A DNA stretch of 24,862 nt from a virus, in the IMG/VR virus record IMGVR_UViG_3300037321_000106, positions 1 through 24,862 of that record. The stretch is one strand, 5' to 3'. Position numbers and translations under genes: made by a program. A model generated the notes under the pieces. That model was not told the origin of the DNA. It saw only the letters and a list, made by a program, of their open reading frames with translations, and made no database searches. Shown here in pieces: positions 4,323 to 19,689 of the stretch (its first letter is position 1; each line of letters opens with the position of its first letter).

Positions 4323-4476
4323 ATGCGACGGAAAAGTATGCTTTTCGAAGCGGGAAGCGGAAACAGCCCGAAATGCCCGGACGAAAGGCCGCGGCCAACG
4401 GCGCAACCGACCTGCCTTCCTGCGAATCTACCAATGTGAGAAATGCGACTTCTGGCACCTCACCAGCAAACCCTGA
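4312..4476 (+). CDS. Small Cys-containing protein (54 aa), zinc-ribbon-like
   Basis: This frame encodes 54 residues starting inside the end of the ASCH-like gene. It has two Cys-rich ends: KCDGKVCFSKREA near the start and YQCEKCDFWHLTS at the end, with a basic middle (TKGRGQRRNRP). The CxxC...W-H-L-T-S ending is typical of small phage proteins that fold around a metal. The function is likely nucleic-acid related, but this is inference. Competing frames here are shorter or lack any motif. Confidence 0.65.
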   Translation: MKPKCDGKVCFSKREAETARNARTKGRGQRRNRPAFLRIYQCEKCDFWHLTSKP

Positions 4477-4490
4477 ACCCTACCAATTCT

Positions 4491-5213
4491 ATGAAAAACA
4501 ACGAAATCATCATTATCGCCGGCCTTCCCCGATCAGGGACAAGCCTTGTCTGTCAAATGCTCTCTGCGGCCGGTATCCGGGTCGCCGGAGATTACCCGAT
4601 GTTTGAGCCTGACGAGATACTGGAATCTCCTGACGCCGCTTTTATCTCCACTTGCGAGGGCGGGGCTGTGAAGCTCATCGATCCTCACCATCACATCATC
4701 CCGAAAGACTACGCTTACCGGATCGTCTTCCTCTCACGCTCAAAACGCCAGCAAGCGCTTTCCACTGCTAAATTCATGATTGCGATGGACATGGTTACAA
4801 ACGGGCGATGCTTTACCGACGCCGGACTCGGGAAGATGCGCGAATCTTTGATCCGTGATGAGAAGCTGGCGCTTGCTGAGCTTTGGACGCATGGTTGCCC
4901 GATTCACCGGATTAAGTTTGAGGATCTGATCGGACAGGCGGCGGTGGCAGTTTCCTCCCTTGCGGACTTTCTGGGTATCGACCAGAACCTTGTCGGCTCG
5001 ATGGTGGCTGCGATCCGCCCGCGACCGCACGGAGCCTTGAACTACCCCGGATTGCTGGAGGTCGAACTCATGCAGGAGCAGGAAGCCCGCGATGGCAAAT
5101 CCCCCGCCTACGACCCCCTGCGGTGCGAATGCAAGTTTCCCGGAGTCGTCGCCCCGTGCGGATACTGCAAAGACGGGGACTACTGCCTGGAGGACGAGCA
5201 ATCTAAGCCTTAA
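4491..5213 (+). CDS. Sulfotransferase-like protein with Cys-rich C-terminus
   Basis: The 240-residue protein opens IIIIAGLPRSGTSLVCQML. This is the 5'-phosphosulfate-binding loop of PAPS-dependent sulfotransferases (PRSGTS at 13 to 18). YRIVFLSRSKRQQALSTAKF (about 76 to 95) matches the region that binds the 3'-phosphate (R83 and S91). IHRIKFEDLIGQ followed by FLGID is the usual late helix region. It would transfer sulfate from PAPS to an unknown acceptor. The tail adds CEC, CxxC and a final Cys (212, 214, 223, 226, 232), a likely metal-binding cluster not usual for the family. I chose the ATG at 4491, after ACCAATTCT; 16 further upstream residues look like leader translation. Host glycan or phage-component modification are both possible. 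Confidence 0.72.
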   Translation: MKNNEIIIIAGLPRSGTSLVCQMLSAAGIRVAGDYPMFEPDEILESPDAAFISTCEGGAVKLIDPHHHIIPKDYAYRIVFLSRSKRQQALSTAKFMIAMDMVTNGRCFTDAGLGKMRESLIRDEKLALAELWTHGCPIHRIKFEDLIGQAAVAVSSLADFLGIDQNLVGSMVAAIRPRPHGALNYPGLLEVELMQEQEARDGKSPAYDPLRCECKFPGVVAPCGYCKDGDYCLEDEQSKP

Positions 5214-5884: not shown

Positions 5885-6390
5885 ACCCCATCCGATTTCA
5901 TCTCCCGATCATCCCTCCGACCGCCACCAGCCAGAGCGCCGGCAAGAGGATGTTTATCCCGAAAGACTCCCAAGGCCGAGTCACCGGGCGACCGATGTTT
6001 TTCAAAAACAAGGCATCAAAATCCGCCGAGCACGATCTCCTGCTGCTGCTGAGCCAATTCGTTCCCGCTAAACCGCTCACCGGCCCCATCGCCTTGTCGG
6101 TGGATTTTGTCTGGCCTTTCCGGAAATCCGAACCGGCATGGAGAAAAGCATTGGGGCGCGTCCATCATACCTCAAAACCTGACGGTTCTAACGCTATCAA
6201 GCAAATTGAGGACTGCATGACGAAGCTCCAATTCTGGGAGGACGATAGCCAGATCGCCGACCTCCACATCTCGAAAGCTTGGGACGATCATATCGGGATC
6301 TCGGTGGAAATCCGCCAGCTTGAAGATCCTCCTCGCCAACCGGCAAAGAGAAAGCAGACTCAGAACCCTGATGAACCCTCCTTGCTGTGA
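5881..6390 (+). CDS. rusA: RusA-family Holliday junction resolvase
   Basis: RusA is a dimeric, metal-dependent nuclease that cuts branched DNA made during phage recombination and replication. The 169-residue protein shows the family core: D75 in LSVDFVWPF, then SKPDGSNAIKQIEDCM with D101, N104, K107 and D111, then WEDDSQIADLHISKAW with D121, D122 and K132. These acidic residues match the catalytic site. I chose the ATG at 5881, which overlaps the previous stop; a longer upstream extension in the same frame would sit inside that gene. The Lys/Arg/Pro-rich C-terminal tail (about 150 to 169) is extra. The gene overlaps the methyltransferase start. Confidence 0.87.
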   Translation: MNPIRFHLPIIPPTATSQSAGKRMFIPKDSQGRVTGRPMFFKNKASKSAEHDLLLLLSQFVPAKPLTGPIALSVDFVWPFRKSEPAWRKALGRVHHTSKPDGSNAIKQIEDCMTKLQFWEDDSQIADLHISKAWDDHIGISVEIRQLEDPPRQPAKRKQTQNPDEPSLL

Positions 6391-8192
6391 ACTACCTCTC
6401 AATTTGCTCCGGGATCGAAGCCGCCTCCGCCGCATGGGCGGGGCTGGGCTGGGAGGCGGTGGGCTTCTCGGAGATCGAGCCTTTCCCGTGCAAGGCGCTT
6501 GCCGCCAACAACCGCGCCTCCCGCCCCATCCACATGCCGGATGCGGATGAGGAGGGCATTTCCGCAGACGATAGGAAATCCCGCGCTGCGGCGATCCGTG
6601 CCGTAAGAAAGCTCCCCGACCACACACCCGGCCAGACCATCCCGAACCTTGGCGATATGAGCCGCTGGCGGGAGTGGCCTGCCGAACTTCTCGCCTCCGT
6701 GGACATCCTCGTCGGCGGGACGCCCTGCCAGGCATTCTCCGTGGCGGGACTCCGCAACTCCCTCGCCGATGAGCGGGGCAACCTGACACTAACCTATGCC
6801 AACATCCTCGAAGCCATCGACAGCGCCCGTGCTCTGCACGGACGACCTCCCGCTATTTGCCTCTGGGAAAACGTCCCCGGAGTCCTCTCCACAAAAGACA
6901 ACGCCTTTGGATGCTTTCTGGCTGCACTGGCCGGAGAGCATGAGCCTTTGCAACCGCCAGGGGGAAAATGGACGGACGTTGGTTATGTGCGCGGTCCCCA
7001 AAGAACAATCGCGTGGCGGATCCTCGACGCCCAATATTTCGGCGTTCCCCAACGACGCCGTCGTGTCTTCGTTATCGCAGGTGCTGGAGAAGGGTTTCGT
7101 CCCGAAGAAATACTTCTTAACGAAGAAGGCGTGCGCCGGGATCATCCGCCGAGCCGCGAAGAGGGGAAGGGCGTTGCCGCCCTCACTGCAAACGGCGTTG
7201 GAACATGCGGCGCTGATGACAACCAAGCCCAAGCAGGACATCTGATCGCGCCGGCCGTTACGGCGAAGTGGGCGAAGGGTAGCGGCGGGCCTGCGGGGGA
7301 TGAATGCCAGAACCTTGTCACCCACACGCAATACGGAGAAATCGCCGGAACATTGACCGCTCGCCATGATTCGTCCCCATGCGATGATCGCGGGCAGAAT
7401 GTCGTGGCGGTTTCCACTAAACCTACCGCCTACCGCACCTCCGGGAACTGCGGTGTCTGGGAAACCGGGGAGAAAACCGATGCGCTCACCACCGGCTCAG
7501 ACCCTTTCTCCCACCTGCTGGCCTTCTCCCCCCAAGGAGGGGCTGCATCCTGCTGCCCGGCAACCGAAGCACCCACCACCGGTCTTCCACTGATCACTTC
7601 CACCGCCTTCGCCCAGAACTCCCGCGATGAGATCCGGGTGCAGGGCGACGGGGAAATCTGCGGTGCGCTCTCCGCAGAGCCGGGGATGAAGCAGACCACG
7701 TATCTGGCCTTCGAGACACGCTTCGCGAGAAACGGGCGGGGTGCCCCATCCGATGTAGTCCCTCCCCTCAAGGCGGAATCGGGATCAACAGGCAAGGGCG
7801 ACGGGGCCCCCTGCGTTGCCTTCAATTTCAACCAATCCGCGAAAACCCGCTCGATGGGGGAGACGGAGGAACTTTCACCGACGTTACAAACCAATGGGAA
7901 GACAGCGGCAGCCACCTCCTCCGCAGTCCGCCGCCTGACCCCGCTGGAGTGCGAGCGCCTCCAGGGCTTTCCCGACAACCACACCCTCCTCCCCGGCAGC
8001 TACAAGCCGCGCAAGGGCGAAGACCATGCGGAAACCGTGGCCTACCTGATCGTCCACGGCTTCACGCCGGAGGAGGCGGAGCAGCTTTCCGGCCACCCGG
8101 ACGGGCCACGCTACAAAGCCTGCGGCAACAGCATGGCCGTGCCGGTCATGCGCTGGCTGGGTAAGCGCATCCAATCTTTCTACAAATCATGA
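6387..8192 (+). CDS. dcm: DNA (cytosine-5) methyltransferase
   Basis: This enzyme adds a methyl group from S-adenosylmethionine to cytosine C5 and probably protects phage DNA from host restriction. The ordered motifs are visible: I (SICSGIEAAS, about 5 to 14), IV with catalytic Cys114 (GGTPCQAFS), VI (ENVPG, 161 to 165) and VIII (PQRRRRVFVI, 221 to 230). IX (RRLTPLECERLQGFPD) and X (GNSMAVPVMRWLG, about 580 to 592) lie near the C-terminus. Between VIII and IX is a long variable region of nearly 300 residues, as in phage multi-target enzymes; it carries several ALTA/TLTARHD/ALTTG/ALSAEPG segments. The start is a GTG overlapping the RusA stop. The target site cannot be read from sequence. Confidence 0.93.
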   Translation: MNYLSICSGIEAASAAWAGLGWEAVGFSEIEPFPCKALAANNRASRPIHMPDADEEGISADDRKSRAAAIRAVRKLPDHTPGQTIPNLGDMSRWREWPAELLASVDILVGGTPCQAFSVAGLRNSLADERGNLTLTYANILEAIDSARALHGRPPAICLWENVPGVLSTKDNAFGCFLAALAGEHEPLQPPGGKWTDVGYVRGPQRTIAWRILDAQYFGVPQRRRRVFVIAGAGEGFRPEEILLNEEGVRRDHPPSREEGKGVAALTANGVGTCGADDNQAQAGHLIAPAVTAKWAKGSGGPAGDECQNLVTHTQYGEIAGTLTARHDSSPCDDRGQNVVAVSTKPTAYRTSGNCGVWETGEKTDALTTGSDPFSHLLAFSPQGGAASCCPATEAPTTGLPLITSTAFAQNSRDEIRVQGDGEICGALSAEPGMKQTTYLAFETRFARNGRGAPSDVVPPLKAESGSTGKGDGAPCVAFNFNQSAKTRSMGETEELSPTLQTNGKTAAATSSAVRRLTPLECERLQGFPDNHTLLPGSYKPRKGEDHAETVAYLIVHGFTPEEAEQLSGHPDGPRYKACGNSMAVPVMRWLGKRIQSFYKS

Positions 8193-14347: not shown

Positions 14348-16072
14348 TTATGGGGTGATATTTGGGAGAACTGAGGCATACCACATTGAGCCGTCTGCCA
14401 CGAATGAAATAATATCCATTCTGCCTGCGGTCGCAGTGATCGTCGGAGCGGTGTCGCCTGAGAATTTAACGCCCGTGAAAGTCGCTGTTCCGTTTCCGGT
14501 TGCGGCGGCTTGTTTGAGGTAAAGGGTAAAAAACTTGCCAGCGGTGGCGGGCGGCATCGTGAAGGTGCAGGCGGTCGAGGCTGTTAGAGTGGCCGTCAGC
14601 ACGGTTCCTGAAGTGATTGCGAGCGTGTGGGATGAGACAACCGTCCCGATCGCGACGACTCCCTCGGTAATGGCCTGGGTGGATACCTCTCCGCTAAAAG
14701 CCTGCGCCCCGGTGAACGTCTCGCCGTCCCATGTCCCTGCACCGACTGTGATGTTTCCGGTCAGCGTGGTGTCCCCGTTGTTGGCGATGACGAATTTCCC
14801 GTTGCCGAAATTCGCATGATTGCCTTCTTCGCTGAAGCCGTAGATGCCGTTGCCGGAGTCGCTGTAGCCGAAGATGCCGTTGCCGGAGTCGCTGTCGCCG
14901 AAGATGGCGGTGCCGGAGTCGCTGTAGCCGTAGATGGAGGTGCCGGAGCTGCTGGAGAACGAGGCACCACCATCAATATCTCTTTTTACGATTGTATCAC
15001 CCGTCGCGGATGATGTCGCGTCCGAGATCTGCGCGGAGAGCAGTCCTGTTAGACCGGAACCATCGCCATCGGGCTGGAGTGCTGATGTAGCTAGATCACC
15101 CTGCGCTGCGGTGGCCGCTCCGATGCTGGCCGGGGTGATGGCGGCTATGAGCGCGGCGACCTCTGCGGTGTCTAGGGTGGTCTCGATCCAGAGGGCGGCT
15201 CCGGTGGTGGAGTCTGTGCATCTCCATGCTTCGTCGTTTGTGGTGTCGATCCAGATGGAGCCGATTTCGTAGCCTGCGGCTGCGTCGTCTGTGACGGTGG
15301 GGGCTGCGGTGGCGGCGTAGTTGTTGAGGGATGGGAGGGCGTTGACCCGCGTATTGATCGCGTCGAGATCGACCGCTCCGCTAACGGTGATGAAATCGGT
15401 CTTGGCTGTGACCGCATCCAGGTTGCCCTGCACAGTTGCCGCCGCACCCGCTGTCTCTGCTCCGATGCTGGCGGGGGTGATATCCTCGATTAGGGCGTTG
15501 ATTTCACCAAGGCCGATGAGCTGGTCGTCATAAATGGTGAAGTCAAAGACTCCTGCTCCTTCATCGGTCACAGTGAATATGACGTAGTGGCCGGAGGCTA
15601 CCGTAAGTAAGTTGGTGTTTGAGGGGTCGCGGATAACTAAGGGGAATGAGGCGGCGTTGAAAATCTCCACCCTGGTAGTGAGGGTCTCGCTCTGGGCGAT
15701 TGTGAGCATGAGCATGATCTCAGCCCCTCCCACGTAGATGTGTCGGGTGTCGTCCACGATGTCGGCGGCAGTGCTGATTAGGGCGACTGCTCCGATATCT
15801 GTTAGCACCTGAGCGGGTGTCCGTTGCTCAATCCCTCCCGCTGCCGCGACTCGGAGCATGTTCAGGGCTGTCAGTCCGGTGGTTTGGAGTCCGGAGGTTT
15901 GCGTGGTTGCGCTCAACGTGTTTCCAGTCAGCGCCAAGCCTGTTCCGATCTCGATCTCCTCACCCAAACCCTCACCAGCAGAGTGACGACCAAAGATTAC
16001 GCCGGTCTTCGATGCCCAGATGTAGCTGACGGCATTTGCAAAGGTTTGGATTACGCGGCTGCGGATGTTCAT
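14348..16072 (-). CDS. Large tail fibre / receptor-binding protein
   Basis: The 574-residue protein shows fibre features. Residues about 36 to 60 contain GLALTGNTLSATT. ITPASIGAETAG and ITPASIGAATAA are repeated collar-like segments. A Ser/Gly/Asp-rich zone follows (about 375 to 420) with 10-residue repeats such as GNGIFGYSDS and GNGIYGFSEE. The C-terminal part is beta-rich (LAITSGTVLTATLTASTACT, FTMPPATAGKFFTLYLK). Such proteins form trimeric shafts with receptor-binding ends. The N-terminus (NIRSRVIQTFANAVSYIW) may attach it to the virion. Its neighbours, two hydrophilic proteins and a coiled-coil protein, are likely partners. Confidence 0.75.
   Translation of the reverse strand: MNIRSRVIQTFANAVSYIWASKTGVIFGRHSAGEGLGEEIEIGTGLALTGNTLSATTQTSGLQTTGLTALNMLRVAAAGGIEQRTPAQVLTDIGAVALISTAADIVDDTRHIYVGGAEIMLMLTIAQSETLTTRVEIFNAASFPLVIRDPSNTNLLTVASGHYVIFTVTDEGAGVFDFTIYDDQLIGLGEINALIEDITPASIGAETAGAAATVQGNLDAVTAKTDFITVSGAVDLDAINTRVNALPSLNNYAATAAPTVTDDAAAGYEIGSIWIDTTNDEAWRCTDSTTGAALWIETTLDTAEVAALIAAITPASIGAATAAQGDLATSALQPDGDGSGLTGLLSAQISDATSSATGDTIVKRDIDGGASFSSSSGTSIYGYSDSGTAIFGDSDSGNGIFGYSDSGNGIYGFSEEGNHANFGNGKFVIANNGDTTLTGNITVGAGTWDGETFTGAQAFSGEVSTQAITEGVVAIGTVVSSHTLAITSGTVLTATLTASTACTFTMPPATAGKFFTLYLKQAAATGNGTATFTGVKFSGDTAPTITATAGRMDIISFVADGSMWYASVLPNITP
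14811..14960 (-). repeat. 30-bp coding repeats in the fibre gene
   Basis: About five tandem units with a 30-bp period (clear at 14841 to 14930) encode GTSIYGYSDS, GTAIFGDSDS, GNGIFGYSDS and GNGIYGFSEE in the fibre frame. The alternating hydrophobic and Gly/Ser pattern fits beta-solenoid rungs. Unit number could vary by slippage or recombination. Confidence 0.8.
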
Positions 16073-16825: not shown

Positions 16826-17692
16826 TTAGAATCCGTAAGGGGTTCCGACTTCGTTGGAAGGCGTTGCGTAGGTGTCTGATGGCGACAAGGCGCGGAATTT
16901 TGCAATCGCCTTGTCGCTGGCCGTGACCGCCGAGGCTTTGGTCTGCTTATCTCTCCAAAGCTCGGATGTTGTCAGTATCCCCCTGGCGACCGGGAGAAGG
17001 TAGGATTCGACCCATTCCTCACGGACTGGCAGTTTTGTCCCCGTGGTGAGCAAATCGGCAAACTTGATCCGGGTTGGGGCAAGCGAAACATCGGCCTCGA
17101 AGCGATACGTTTTTTCCGGCATCGGGTGAAACCTGATCACGGCTGGGTTTGTCGAATTCCGGTTCCCGGCATTTCCTTCCACCCAATAAATCGTTGGTCG
17201 TCCGGTATCCTTCTTTTTGAACCGGCTGCCGCGCAATCGACTTTGGGTGATTTCTTTTCCTTCCCCGAGGATAACCGGATCGCTGATGATTTCCAGATAC
17301 GGTTCGGGCAGCAGGAGTGAATCGGAGTAAATCGTCGCCCCTACGGTTGCTGTCGCTCCGGTGTAGGGGTGAAGCAGCGTATTGCCTCCGGTGATCTGGT
17401 TGTCGATGTCGTCGCCTTCGATTCGGATCGTCTTGGCGTAATCGGTGACCGGGAAATTGTTTCCGGCGATTTCCACCGATCCGTTTGTCACATCAAAGAC
17501 CAAAGCCCTTGGGGCGGCTAGGAAGAATGATCCTACGGTGGTTTTGCTCTTTGATCCCGAGAGGGAATCAATTTGCTGAATCGCCCCGTTGGTGGCATCC
17601 AGTATTTCAAGCCGCGCGTCTGCGGTCAGGTCGTTGGGGCTGCTGACGTTCAGATCCCGAACCAATCGGGCGAGGAAGGAAATTGCGTTCAT
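16826..17692 (-). CDS. Adaptor/connector-like virion protein (paralogue 2)
   Basis: The 288-residue protein begins with a helix (LARLVRDLNVSS and DARLEILDATNGAIQQID). A beta-rich middle follows (KTIRIEGDDIDNQ, TVGATIYSDSLLLPEPY, IRFHPMPEKTYRFEADVS). A C-terminal helix begins REEWVESYLLPVARGILTTS and continues ELWRDKQTK. The layout of an initial helix, a beta domain and a late VESYLLPVA helix resembles head-tail adaptors or tail tubular proteins of podoviruses. The preceding gene has the same late motif, so the two look like tandem duplicates. It starts within that gene's stop (ATGA). Confidence 0.55.
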   Translation of the reverse strand: MNAISFLARLVRDLNVSSPNDLTADARLEILDATNGAIQQIDSLSGSKSKTTVGSFFLAAPRALVFDVTNGSVEIAGNNFPVTDYAKTIRIEGDDIDNQITGGNTLLHPYTGATATVGATIYSDSLLLPEPYLEIISDPVILGEGKEITQSRLRGSRFKKKDTGRPTIYWVEGNAGNRNSTNPAVIRFHPMPEKTYRFEADVSLAPTRIKFADLLTTGTKLPVREEWVESYLLPVARGILTTSELWRDKQTKASAVTASDKAIAKFRALSPSDTYATPSNEVGTPYGF

Positions 17693-18876
17693 TTCGGTGT
17701 CTCCTCCCGTTTATTGCGGTTGTCTCCGGCATTTCCGGGAAGCGGATCAGCAAGGCCAAGCGAGATCGATGCACGCTGGTATTCCCGGTCGATGGTAGGC
17801 TTGAGCTCCTGCTGGCGGAAAAGGTAGTATGAGGAGGCGAGATACTTTGCGATGGGCAAAAGTAGCGTTTCGACATACCTGTGCGGGATCGGGATCACCG
17901 GGCAGGTAATCAGATCATCAGACCTAAATCGCGGAGCCTCCTTCACGACGTTGAGAAGGAAGCTGACGCTTGCTCCGACAACAGCTGGAGTGACGTGCAG
18001 GACGCATTTCGCGGGATCTACCCCGGATTGGGTCATGCGCTCGACGTGATACGCCAGCGGCTCGGTGGTGGTTTCCCCGTCCAGGTAAAGATCGGAAAAA
18101 GTCTCAATCTCTCCGATGGTGCCGATTGGAACAAGCGGGCGGCGGTTATCCGCCCTACGGCACGGGCCGATCACGTTTTGGATGTCGTCGGCAAGATCAA
18201 TCGAGGATTCGCCATCCGCCAAGGTCAGGGTGAGCGTTTCGTTCGCCCAGTAGTCCCGCCCCTCGGCGTTATTCCAAACCATTTGCATCGCCGCATTCAA
18301 ATCGTTGAGAGCACGATCACGCGCAAAGTCAGGGGCGGATTTCCGGCAAAACATTCCCCACATGGACAGGATTTCATCCACGACCTGGCAGACCGACATT
18401 CCCAGAAGATCGCTCGCTCCGGCGAGGTCAAGATATGCCTCCATTCTGGACTCGAACCTAGCTGAAATATCCCTTGTTCTTGCGACCGAAAGCGGAACCA
18501 CGGCGCTGAATCCACTCGCGAAATTTGCTGAAATATCCCTTGTTCTTGCGACCGAAAGCGGAACCACGGCGCTGAATCCGTTTGTGAAATTGGCCGAGAT
18601 GAAAATGCCCCGACTGACCGAAAGCGGAACCACGGCGCTGAATCCGTTTGTGAAATTGGCCGAGATGAAAATGCCCCGACTGACCGAAAGCGGAACCGCA
18701 GCGCTTAATCCGTTTGCGAAATTCCCGGAAACCCGTTGGGAGCGGGATACCGACATAGGAACTGCCGCCGATAGCGATGATGCAAAAACAGCCGTAATCA
18801 CGACGCGACCGATCGACAACGGAATCACGGCGCTAACGCTGGCTCCGAGAGTTGAGCTGATAGCTTGGTTGGCCAC
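17689..18876 (-). CDS. Adaptor-like virion protein with six N-terminal 22-residue repeats (paralogue 1)
   Basis: The 395-residue protein has two parts. Residues about 7 to 138 are six 22-residue repeats, each built on F, SAxVPLSV, R and IS; the middle units are nearly identical in DNA. Residues about 139 to 395 look like the neighbouring adaptor-like protein: a helix (SVCQVVDEILSMWG, RALNDLNAAMQMVW), a beta middle, then RYVETLLLPIAKYLASSYYL and FRQQELKPTIDRE. This matches the VESYLLPVA helix of the next gene. The start is a GTG nine bases after the previous stop, preceded by AATCTAAAATC. The repeats may form an exposed beta structure on the virion; this is inference. Confidence 0.6.
   Translation of the reverse strand: MANQAISSTLGASVSAVIPLSIGRVVITAVFASSLSAAVPMSVSRSQRVSGNFANGLSAAVPLSVSRGIFISANFTNGFSAVVPLSVSRGIFISANFTNGFSAVVPLSVARTRDISANFASGFSAVVPLSVARTRDISARFESRMEAYLDLAGASDLLGMSVCQVVDEILSMWGMFCRKSAPDFARDRALNDLNAAMQMVWNNAEGRDYWANETLTLTLADGESSIDLADDIQNVIGPCRRADNRRPLVPIGTIGEIETFSDLYLDGETTTEPLAYHVERMTQSGVDPAKCVLHVTPAVVGASVSFLLNVVKEAPRFRSDDLITCPVIPIPHRYVETLLLPIAKYLASSYYLFRQQELKPTIDREYQRASISLGLADPLPGNAGDNRNKREETPK
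18463..18858 (-). repeat. 66-bp tandem coding repeats
   Basis: Five full 66-bp units (18463 to 18792) plus a degenerate sixth (18793 to 18858) encode 22-residue repeats in one frame. The repeats nearest the adaptor-like domain are the most alike (NFTNGFSAVVPLSV and NFASGFSAVVPLSV), and those at the start are diverged. This gradient is typical of recent tandem duplication from one end. Confidence 0.9.
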
Positions 18877-18885
18877 GATTTTAGA

Positions 18886-19689
18886 TTATTGTAGGGAGAT
18901 CGACAATGCGCCGGCGGCTAGGGTTACATCATCCCCATTCAGAGCCGTTCTTGATGCGGCGACGGTTCCGACGAAGAGCATGTTTCCGGTCGAGACATCA
19001 TCCCAAAGGCCGAGATGCGTGAGGATTGCCGTTCCGGAGGCCACGCTGGCGTTGAAGCTCTCAATACTGGTGTTTGCCGCCACTCCACCGGAAGAGGCAT
19101 CAAAGGCCGTCGCTGACCGGGCGTAGCCTGAATCAGCCCATTCGGTGAGCACGTCCCCGACGAGGGCGGTTCCAAGCCCGACGAACAACGATGGCATCGT
19201 GTATGCCGACGCCCCGAACATCAGATCCAACAGCTTGCGTTGCGCGTAGGGGGTGAGCCCTCCCGCCGCAATGTTGCTGATCGTGATTGCAATTCCACCG
19301 GATGCGACACTTGGCCGGTCATTGATTGCCACCGTCCTTTGTGTCGATAAGGCACCGTGTGAGATCATGTTGGTTCCGCTGGTGGCCGCCACATCGTAGA
19401 TCGCCCAATGGGTGACAGTCCCCCACGCGGCAGTCGCTTGCGGGAAGGTGAATGTCGCGCCGTTCACCTTTGTTGGCGTCCCTGAAACCGCGCACTCAGG
19501 AAAGTTGGTCAGGTTATTTAGGATTGCGACACGGGCATAGCTTCCTCCGCTTACCTCATTGCCGACTCCGGACTCGCCGGGATCTGCCGTGAAGAGGCCA
19601 AGGTAAAGGGTTCCCGCAGGAGTGTAAGCTCCCGTCCCGAGGATGTGATCGAGAAGCTCATTCTCGGCATAATCTGATAAAACGCTCAT
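18886..19689 (-). CDS. Duplicated-domain tail-fibre-like protein
   Basis: The 267-residue protein contains two related halves. The first (1 to 138) has SDYAENELLDHILGTGAY, LYLGLFTADP, GGSYARVAI, THWAIYD and RTVAIN. The second (about 144 to 267) has TPYAQRKLLDLMFGASAY, LFVGLGTAL, SGYARSAT, THLGLWD and RTALN in the same order. A single copy of this domain is seen in phage tail-fibre-like and tail tip proteins. It is probably a virion surface or tail component. The start follows CACCACCACC before ATG. Confidence 0.65.
   Translation of the reverse strand: MSVLSDYAENELLDHILGTGAYTPAGTLYLGLFTADPGESGVGNEVSGGSYARVAILNNLTNFPECAVSGTPTKVNGATFTFPQATAAWGTVTHWAIYDVAATSGTNMISHGALSTQRTVAINDRPSVASGGIAITISNIAAGGLTPYAQRKLLDLMFGASAYTMPSLFVGLGTALVGDVLTEWADSGYARSATAFDASSGGVAANTSIESFNASVASGTAILTHLGLWDDVSTGNMLFVGTVAASRTALNGDDVTLAAGALSISLQ

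Follow-up and report, generated by a model that had tools for sequence, protein, structure and literature searches.

P0001, a 395-residue protein encoded on the minus strand of an IMG/VR virus record, is probably a head-tail adaptor whose N-terminal array of seven repeat units forms the 'rope' running along the axis of a beads-on-a-rope side fibre. The record (hereafter the window) is 24,862 bases in length and is probably a fragment. The features on which this reading draws are listed below.

16826..17692, minus strand: P0002, 288 aa, adaptor-domain paralogue without repeats
17689..18876, minus strand: P0001, 395 aa, putative repeat 'rope' at the N-terminus plus predicted head-tail adaptor domain
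17692..18444, minus strand: predicted podophage head-tail adaptor domain of P0001 (Foldseek; pLDDT mostly 76-90)
18886..19689, minus strand: P0003, two tandem gp80-type domains (family of the GP4 fibre I bead protein), directly upstream of P0001
20414..21880, minus strand: major capsid protein (phrog_334 major head protein, E=5.4e-09)

P0001 opens with an array of 22-residue repeats

The start codon of P0001 is a GTG located 9 nt past the P0003 stop, at the place where its relatives carry an ATG. Residues 7-137 (DNA 18466-18858) comprised six repeat units of 21-22 residues each, and a diverged seventh unit formed the junction with the adaptor domain.

18796..18858, minus strand: repeat unit 1, residues 7-27, 21 residues, the most diverged
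18730..18795, minus strand: repeat unit 2, residues 28-49
18664..18729, minus strand: repeat unit 3, residues 50-71
18598..18663, minus strand: repeat unit 4, residues 72-93
18532..18597, minus strand: repeat unit 5, residues 94-115
18466..18531, minus strand: repeat unit 6, residues 116-137
18400..18465, minus strand: diverged junction unit 7, SARFESRMEAYLDLAGASDLLG, residues 138-159, joining the array to the adaptor

The core motif SA[VA]xP[LM]S[VI] fell at residues 15, 36, 58, 80, 102 and 124, giving spacings of 21, 22, 22, 22 and 22, and the units measured 66 bp each, other than unit 1 at ~63 bp. TRF detected the array independently with a period of 66. BLOSUM62 autocorrelation of residues 1-137 peaked at lag 22 (z = 24.9; 0 of 500 shuffles reached the peak), cf. 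z = 0.5 for residues 138-395 of the same protein and z ≤ 1.5 for seven other window proteins. These measures bear out a preliminary description of this DNA, which had reported six 22-residue tandem repeats opening the 395-residue protein, with near-identical units next to the adaptor and drifted units at the start: the adjacent adaptor-proximal units (3-4, 4-5 and 5-6) matched at 18-20 of 22 residues, and unit 1 matched the other units at 6-8 of 22. Unit 7 (SARFESRMEAYLDLAGASDLLG) was scored equally or higher by 91 of 20,000 shuffles, and its LxGASD end was kept in most relatives. A 30-bp stretch, GACCGAAAGCGGAACCACGGCGCTGAATCC, was present in 3 copies in the window record and was absent from every other IMG/VR contig searched. 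P0001 matched no family in Pfam or PHROGs, gave no tblastn match in the phage collection, and had no relatives among the genome contigs searched.

The C-terminal domain and the head/neck gene block

The best Foldseek matches of the P0001 C-terminal model were the adaptors of cyanophage A4, VP1 and Pa223 and GP4 gp81 (adaptor entries 9k09_d, E=5.3e-06, 8zkk_B, 9nwi_A and 8jov_G), and the P0001 model had no significant match outside adaptors. The C-terminal part is thus predicted to have the head-tail adaptor fold, and the adaptor-like domain of the preliminary description stands, as all top matches were podophage adaptors. The 250 C-terminal residues share the fold of the P22 gp4/T7 gp11 type of podophage adaptor, which includes GP4 gp81 and the adaptors of A4, VP1 and Pa223; nothing equivalent to the repeat arm at the N-terminus of P0001 is present in the known podophage adaptor structures (targets of ~200-220 residues). 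Searching PDB sequences with P0001 itself or with the adaptor, rope and P0002 profiles gave no significant match.

The neighbouring gene had been described as a paralogue lacking the repeats, and this was corroborated, since the P0001 and P0002 families aligned by hhalign with E = 4.5e-12 and P0002 was without periodicity (z = -0.4). P0002 is probably a second adaptor. GP4 has two 12-copy proteins at the adaptor position (8jov_G and 8jov_2), which were reached via Burkholderia phage homologues. The gene order of capsid, P0007, gp80, adaptor and adaptor paralogue forms a head/neck block, which fits an adaptor. Two successive low-complexity proteins rich in Ser, Thr and Asn follow P0002 (16079-16399 and 16406-16822, minus strand) and occupy the same place in the related loci L004, L007 and L012; the second has a conserved terminal tail, 'ANI..xISFSIPxxGxxP'.

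Repeats are kept in relatives and vary by whole units

Relatives of the P0001 C-terminal domain were drawn from 15 distinct IMG/VR loci at 29-72% identity. In nearly all of them the ATG start lay 0-20 nt past the stop of the upstream gp80-type gene, ahead of the repeats, and most opened with 21-22-residue units; a profile made from the clear units picked up the remaining ones in register. A period of 21-22 was found at z ≥ 4.5 in the N-termini of 10 of 12 family members tested (an eleventh gave z 2.2), cf. 0 of 12 for the adaptor parts of the same proteins. By eye, units numbered seven in the window, six in L009 and L010, five in L007, four in L004, L006, L012 and L045, three in L011, L046 and L061, two in L047, and one in L055, which retained just a single short unit. 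In L008 and L060 the N-termini were long but showed no clear period of 22 residues. In L060 (2537-4747), the adaptor relative carries a 489-residue N-terminal extension with another type of repeat (VTGxxTFNxSA), which replaces most of the rope.

L046 and L047 were 98.5% identical in gp80, 97.1% in the adaptor and 97.2% in the P0002-like protein. Their fused N-termini differed by exactly 21 residues, or one unit, and a separate repeat ORF located between the gp80 and adaptor genes also differed by 21 residues. Since these two loci differ by exactly one unit at two sites, repeat number changes by whole units. In both loci (L046, 3101-3860; L047, 3212-3911) an in-frame TAA splits the rope from the adaptor-fused piece, with an ATG three bases on and repeat units on either side of the TAA; readthrough or a two-part rope is possible.

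The preliminary description had proposed comparing repeat number in related phages, and the repeats proved to be kept there, with a copy number that varied from 1 to 7 by whole units. It had also named homologues starting after the repeats as evidence against its reading; nearly all relatives started before the repeats; L046/L047 have a separate repeat ORF in between, and L055 has one short unit left. An in-frame ATG at residue 145, just ahead of the adaptor, could be taken as the true start, which would leave the repeats untranslated or junk. We consider this scarcely credible, given that relatives start ahead of the repeats, 0-20 nt behind gp80, that the units stay in frame as multiples of 3, and that the residue motif is kept though the DNA differs. 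Internal-start and junk readings were rejected on the start sites of the relatives.

P0003 is a tandem gp80 protein

The protein encoded directly upstream, P0003, matched Pfam PF23140 ('Podophage GP4 fiber I protein gp80') in two stretches (E=5.4e-59) and 8jou_a by phmmer (E=1.4e-07), and its model matched 8jou_a in Foldseek (TMt 0.76). PDB entry 8jou, titled 'Fiber I and fiber-tail-adaptor of phage GP4', contains 10 gp80 chains and 3 Ig-like collar chains. A gp80 gene was located upstream in all P0001 relatives examined, mostly 0-20 nt away. The adaptor and repeats of the preliminary description were retained here, although the neighbouring tandem gp80 bead gene, for which GP4 fibre I is the precedent, had been missed. 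According to the GP4 tail study, each fibre I reportedly consists of five gp80 dimers joined by an elongated rope protein. Details of this rope were not found in the literature searched. The gp80 of 8jou is described as a dimer that forms a fibril from an adhesin to the tail collar (PMC13243795).

gp80 genes adjoin repeat proteins in other phages

Periodicity was measured in the neighbours of gp80-family genes, with lags of 15-30 allowed. Neighbours with a period of 20-22 were found in BcepIL02 (z 10.1), DC1 (9.5), POI1126 (8.4), Oline (7.9), L018 (7.5), C72C1 (6.2), L013 (16.7), L017 (22.4), L023 (28.7), L027 (30.2), MEP401 (12.0) and cta39025 (6.2), cf. a background of 135 other ORFs of the same loci, for which the 95th percentile was z 2.3 and three reached z ≥ 3.5 at lag 20-22. 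High values at lag 20-22 came from Lessievirus, rhizobial and marine podophages, a mycobacteriophage (Oline gp32) and siphophage-like contigs. In Lessievirus, the gene after gp80 is built of 20-residue repeats (BcepIL02 gp56, z 10.1), and in most of these phages the collar gene comes next. The siphophage-like contigs L013, L017, L023 and L027 encode, upstream of gp80, proteins of 300-1040 residues in which near-perfect 21-22-residue repeats are numerous; in L013, L017 and L027 an N-terminal extension is followed by the repeats and then by a short C-terminal tail. Two marine podophage proteins beside gp80 (L029, 2447-3208; L065, 4489-4794) have a recurring 'E.GDxRITE.GDxRI' motif.

Among 12 named phages chosen by their gp80 match alone, 5 had a 20-22-residue repeat neighbour and 7 had none, so that pairing of gp80 with a repeat protein is frequent, yet not universal. 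The five include the myophages PVJ1 and Lietuvens, in which the repeat signal is confined to the first 130 residues: ~125 residues of N-terminal 20-residue repeats are fused to a Phage_Mu_Gp48 domain (residues 130-268 in PVJ1 and 130-266 in Lietuvens), and the gene adjoins gp80. The Lietuvens signal was modest (z 3.4; 0 of 500 shuffles).

Collar genes, predicted fold and profile comparisons

An HMM of the GP4-type Ig-like collar found a collar alongside free ropes, including those of L023 and L037, which were outside its training set. The same HMM found a collar in 0 of 12 fused-rope records (the window and 11 related ones), some of which may be incomplete. With the rope fused to the adaptor, no collar would be needed, and its absence from these records is suggestive of this.

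The preliminary description had raised a regular beta fold for the repeats. AlphaFold modelling of P0001 alone drew short beta strands in each unit at pLDDT 30-55 and gave no confident regular fold, so that this expectation was not borne out. In an artificial read-through chain joining P0003 to P0001, which was modelled from a shallow alignment (15 rows) as one chain and not as a multimer, the repeats were no better than alone (pLDDT 23-50) and no confident contact was predicted. Comparison of the fused repeats by hhalign with the Lessievirus, rhizobial, C72C1/L018, Oline and siphophage ropes gave results no better than shuffled columns, cf. the siphophage ropes L017 and L027, which resembled each other (0 of 100 shuffles as good). 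Because the fused repeats have no profile homology to free ropes, our claim is that the array works like a GP4 rope, not that it is a homologue of one.

Comparison with known systems

The window resembles GP4 fibre I (PDB 8jou) and its Lessievirus relatives, whose rope is phrog_19041, in that a gp80-family gene and the gene for a 20-22-residue repeat protein are neighbours in the neck/tail block, adjoining the adaptor genes. It differs from them in that its gp80 is a fused tandem pair, its rope forms part of the adaptor protein and is not free, no Ig-like collar homologue was found, and its repeats show no profile homology to free ropes. In Psychrobacillus phage PVJ1 and Sporosarcina phage Lietuvens, too, N-terminal 20-residue repeats are fused to a structural domain of the virion and encoded immediately behind gp80, but there the anchor is a baseplate protein (Mu gp48) where P0001 has a podophage adaptor; the literature searched contained no account of these repeat proteins as ropes. 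The neck fibre of A-1(L) (gp82-gp81-gp80), in which five bead chains are held on a neck ring, works alike, whereas its beads are trimers joined head to tail through their own beta-hairpins, without a rope (PMC10966104). Equating A-1(L) gp80 with GP4 gp80 was rejected, as it is a different protein and the shared number is a coincidence.

Other features of the window

A 30-bp tandem repeat in four copies (14829-14948, minus strand) lies inside the fibre-like P0004 and encodes GYSDSGNGIFGYSDSG-type decapeptides. On the plus strand, a C-5 cytosine methylase (6387-8192) contains a long insertion that splits its Pfam match into two stretches, and a sulfotransferase-like gene (4443-5213) gave weak matches above threshold (PF13469, PF00685).

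A beads-on-a-rope fibre and its alternatives

In the model that we favour, the C-terminal domain of P0001 would sit in the adaptor ring below the portal, and the 22-residue units would project outwards as an arm. Each unit, or pair of units, would be clasped by the gp80-type domains of P0003 (a fused pair), which is proposed because gp80 genes recurrently pair with repeat proteins. Repeat number would set bead count and fibre length, and would change by gain or loss of whole units. A separate rope protein on a 15-fold Ig-like collar does the same job in GP4-type phages; in the window phage, fusion of the rope to the adaptor would replace that collar. We infer the binding of rope to gp80, the display outside the particle and the use of repeat number as a length ruler. 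By eye, the 285-residue Lessievirus ropes hold about ten or eleven units (BcepMigl only ~seven); compared with the ten gp80 chains in 8jou, this count, which is from Lessievirus ropes and not from GP4's own, suggests one unit per gp80 domain. Several points stand against the model: AlphaFold predicted no confident contact, homology to free ropes was lacking, and 7 of 12 gp80 phages were without a repeat neighbour. Furthermore, an adaptor ring is normally 12-fold and would thus give 12 arms, cf. five in GP4, which also counts against it.

The repeats might instead be a self-sufficient exposed beta structure, such as stacked hairpins or a small solenoid, arranged round the adaptor ring as its own spike or collar, with gp80 merely a fellow neck part. 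The short beta strands that AlphaFold drew in each unit agree with this, as does the frequent occurrence of beta-rich repeats in phage fibres. Rope and gp80 can also be uncoupled, given that some phages with gp80 have no rope. We nevertheless regard it as unlikely, since the partnerless repeats reached only pLDDT 30-55 with no significant non-adaptor Foldseek match, and since it leaves the recurrent pairing with gp80 across unrelated phages unexplained.

Low predicted confidence, along with a length that varies freely from 1 to 7 units, could equally point to a flexible, length-tolerant spacer or intraparticle arm (e.g. to the portal, capsid floor or DNA) that has no specific partner, and terminal extensions of neck proteins that touch the portal are known in other podophages. 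The conserved 21-22-residue register and the LxGASD-type junction argue for a repeating unit of binding or folding, and siphophages and myophages show this period next to gp80 as well; we rate a spacer as improbable, below the self-sufficient beta structure. It is more improbable still that the repeat is itself adhesive, a surface-exposed, copy-number-variable region for host binding or surface change. Whole-unit changes between relatives whose flanking proteins are 97-99% identical, and the near-identical recent copies in the window, would suit such a region, but the siphophage ropes L013, L017 and L027 hold their repeats in mid-protein, as connectors and not as a tip.

More tentatively than for P0001 itself, gp80 beads on a rope of 20-22-residue repeats may represent a side-fibre system that is widespread among podo-, sipho- and myophages and has so far gone unrecognised. 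Its rope would be free or grafted onto any available virion ring (adaptor, Mu gp48 baseplate or Gly-rich minor tail protein), and the number of repeats would act as a genetic ruler of fibre length, changing in single steps. If this is true, an anonymous repeat becomes a testable part with one 22-residue unit per bead, and fibre length would be written in repeat number, providing phages with a simple means of altering side-fibre length in either direction. Many 'hypothetical' repeat proteins encoded next to gp80-family genes ('head protein', phrog_240), mycobacteriophage minor tail proteins among them, would also gain a function, as might the repeat-like stretches that the LSH1 study's authors found puzzling (PMC13243795).
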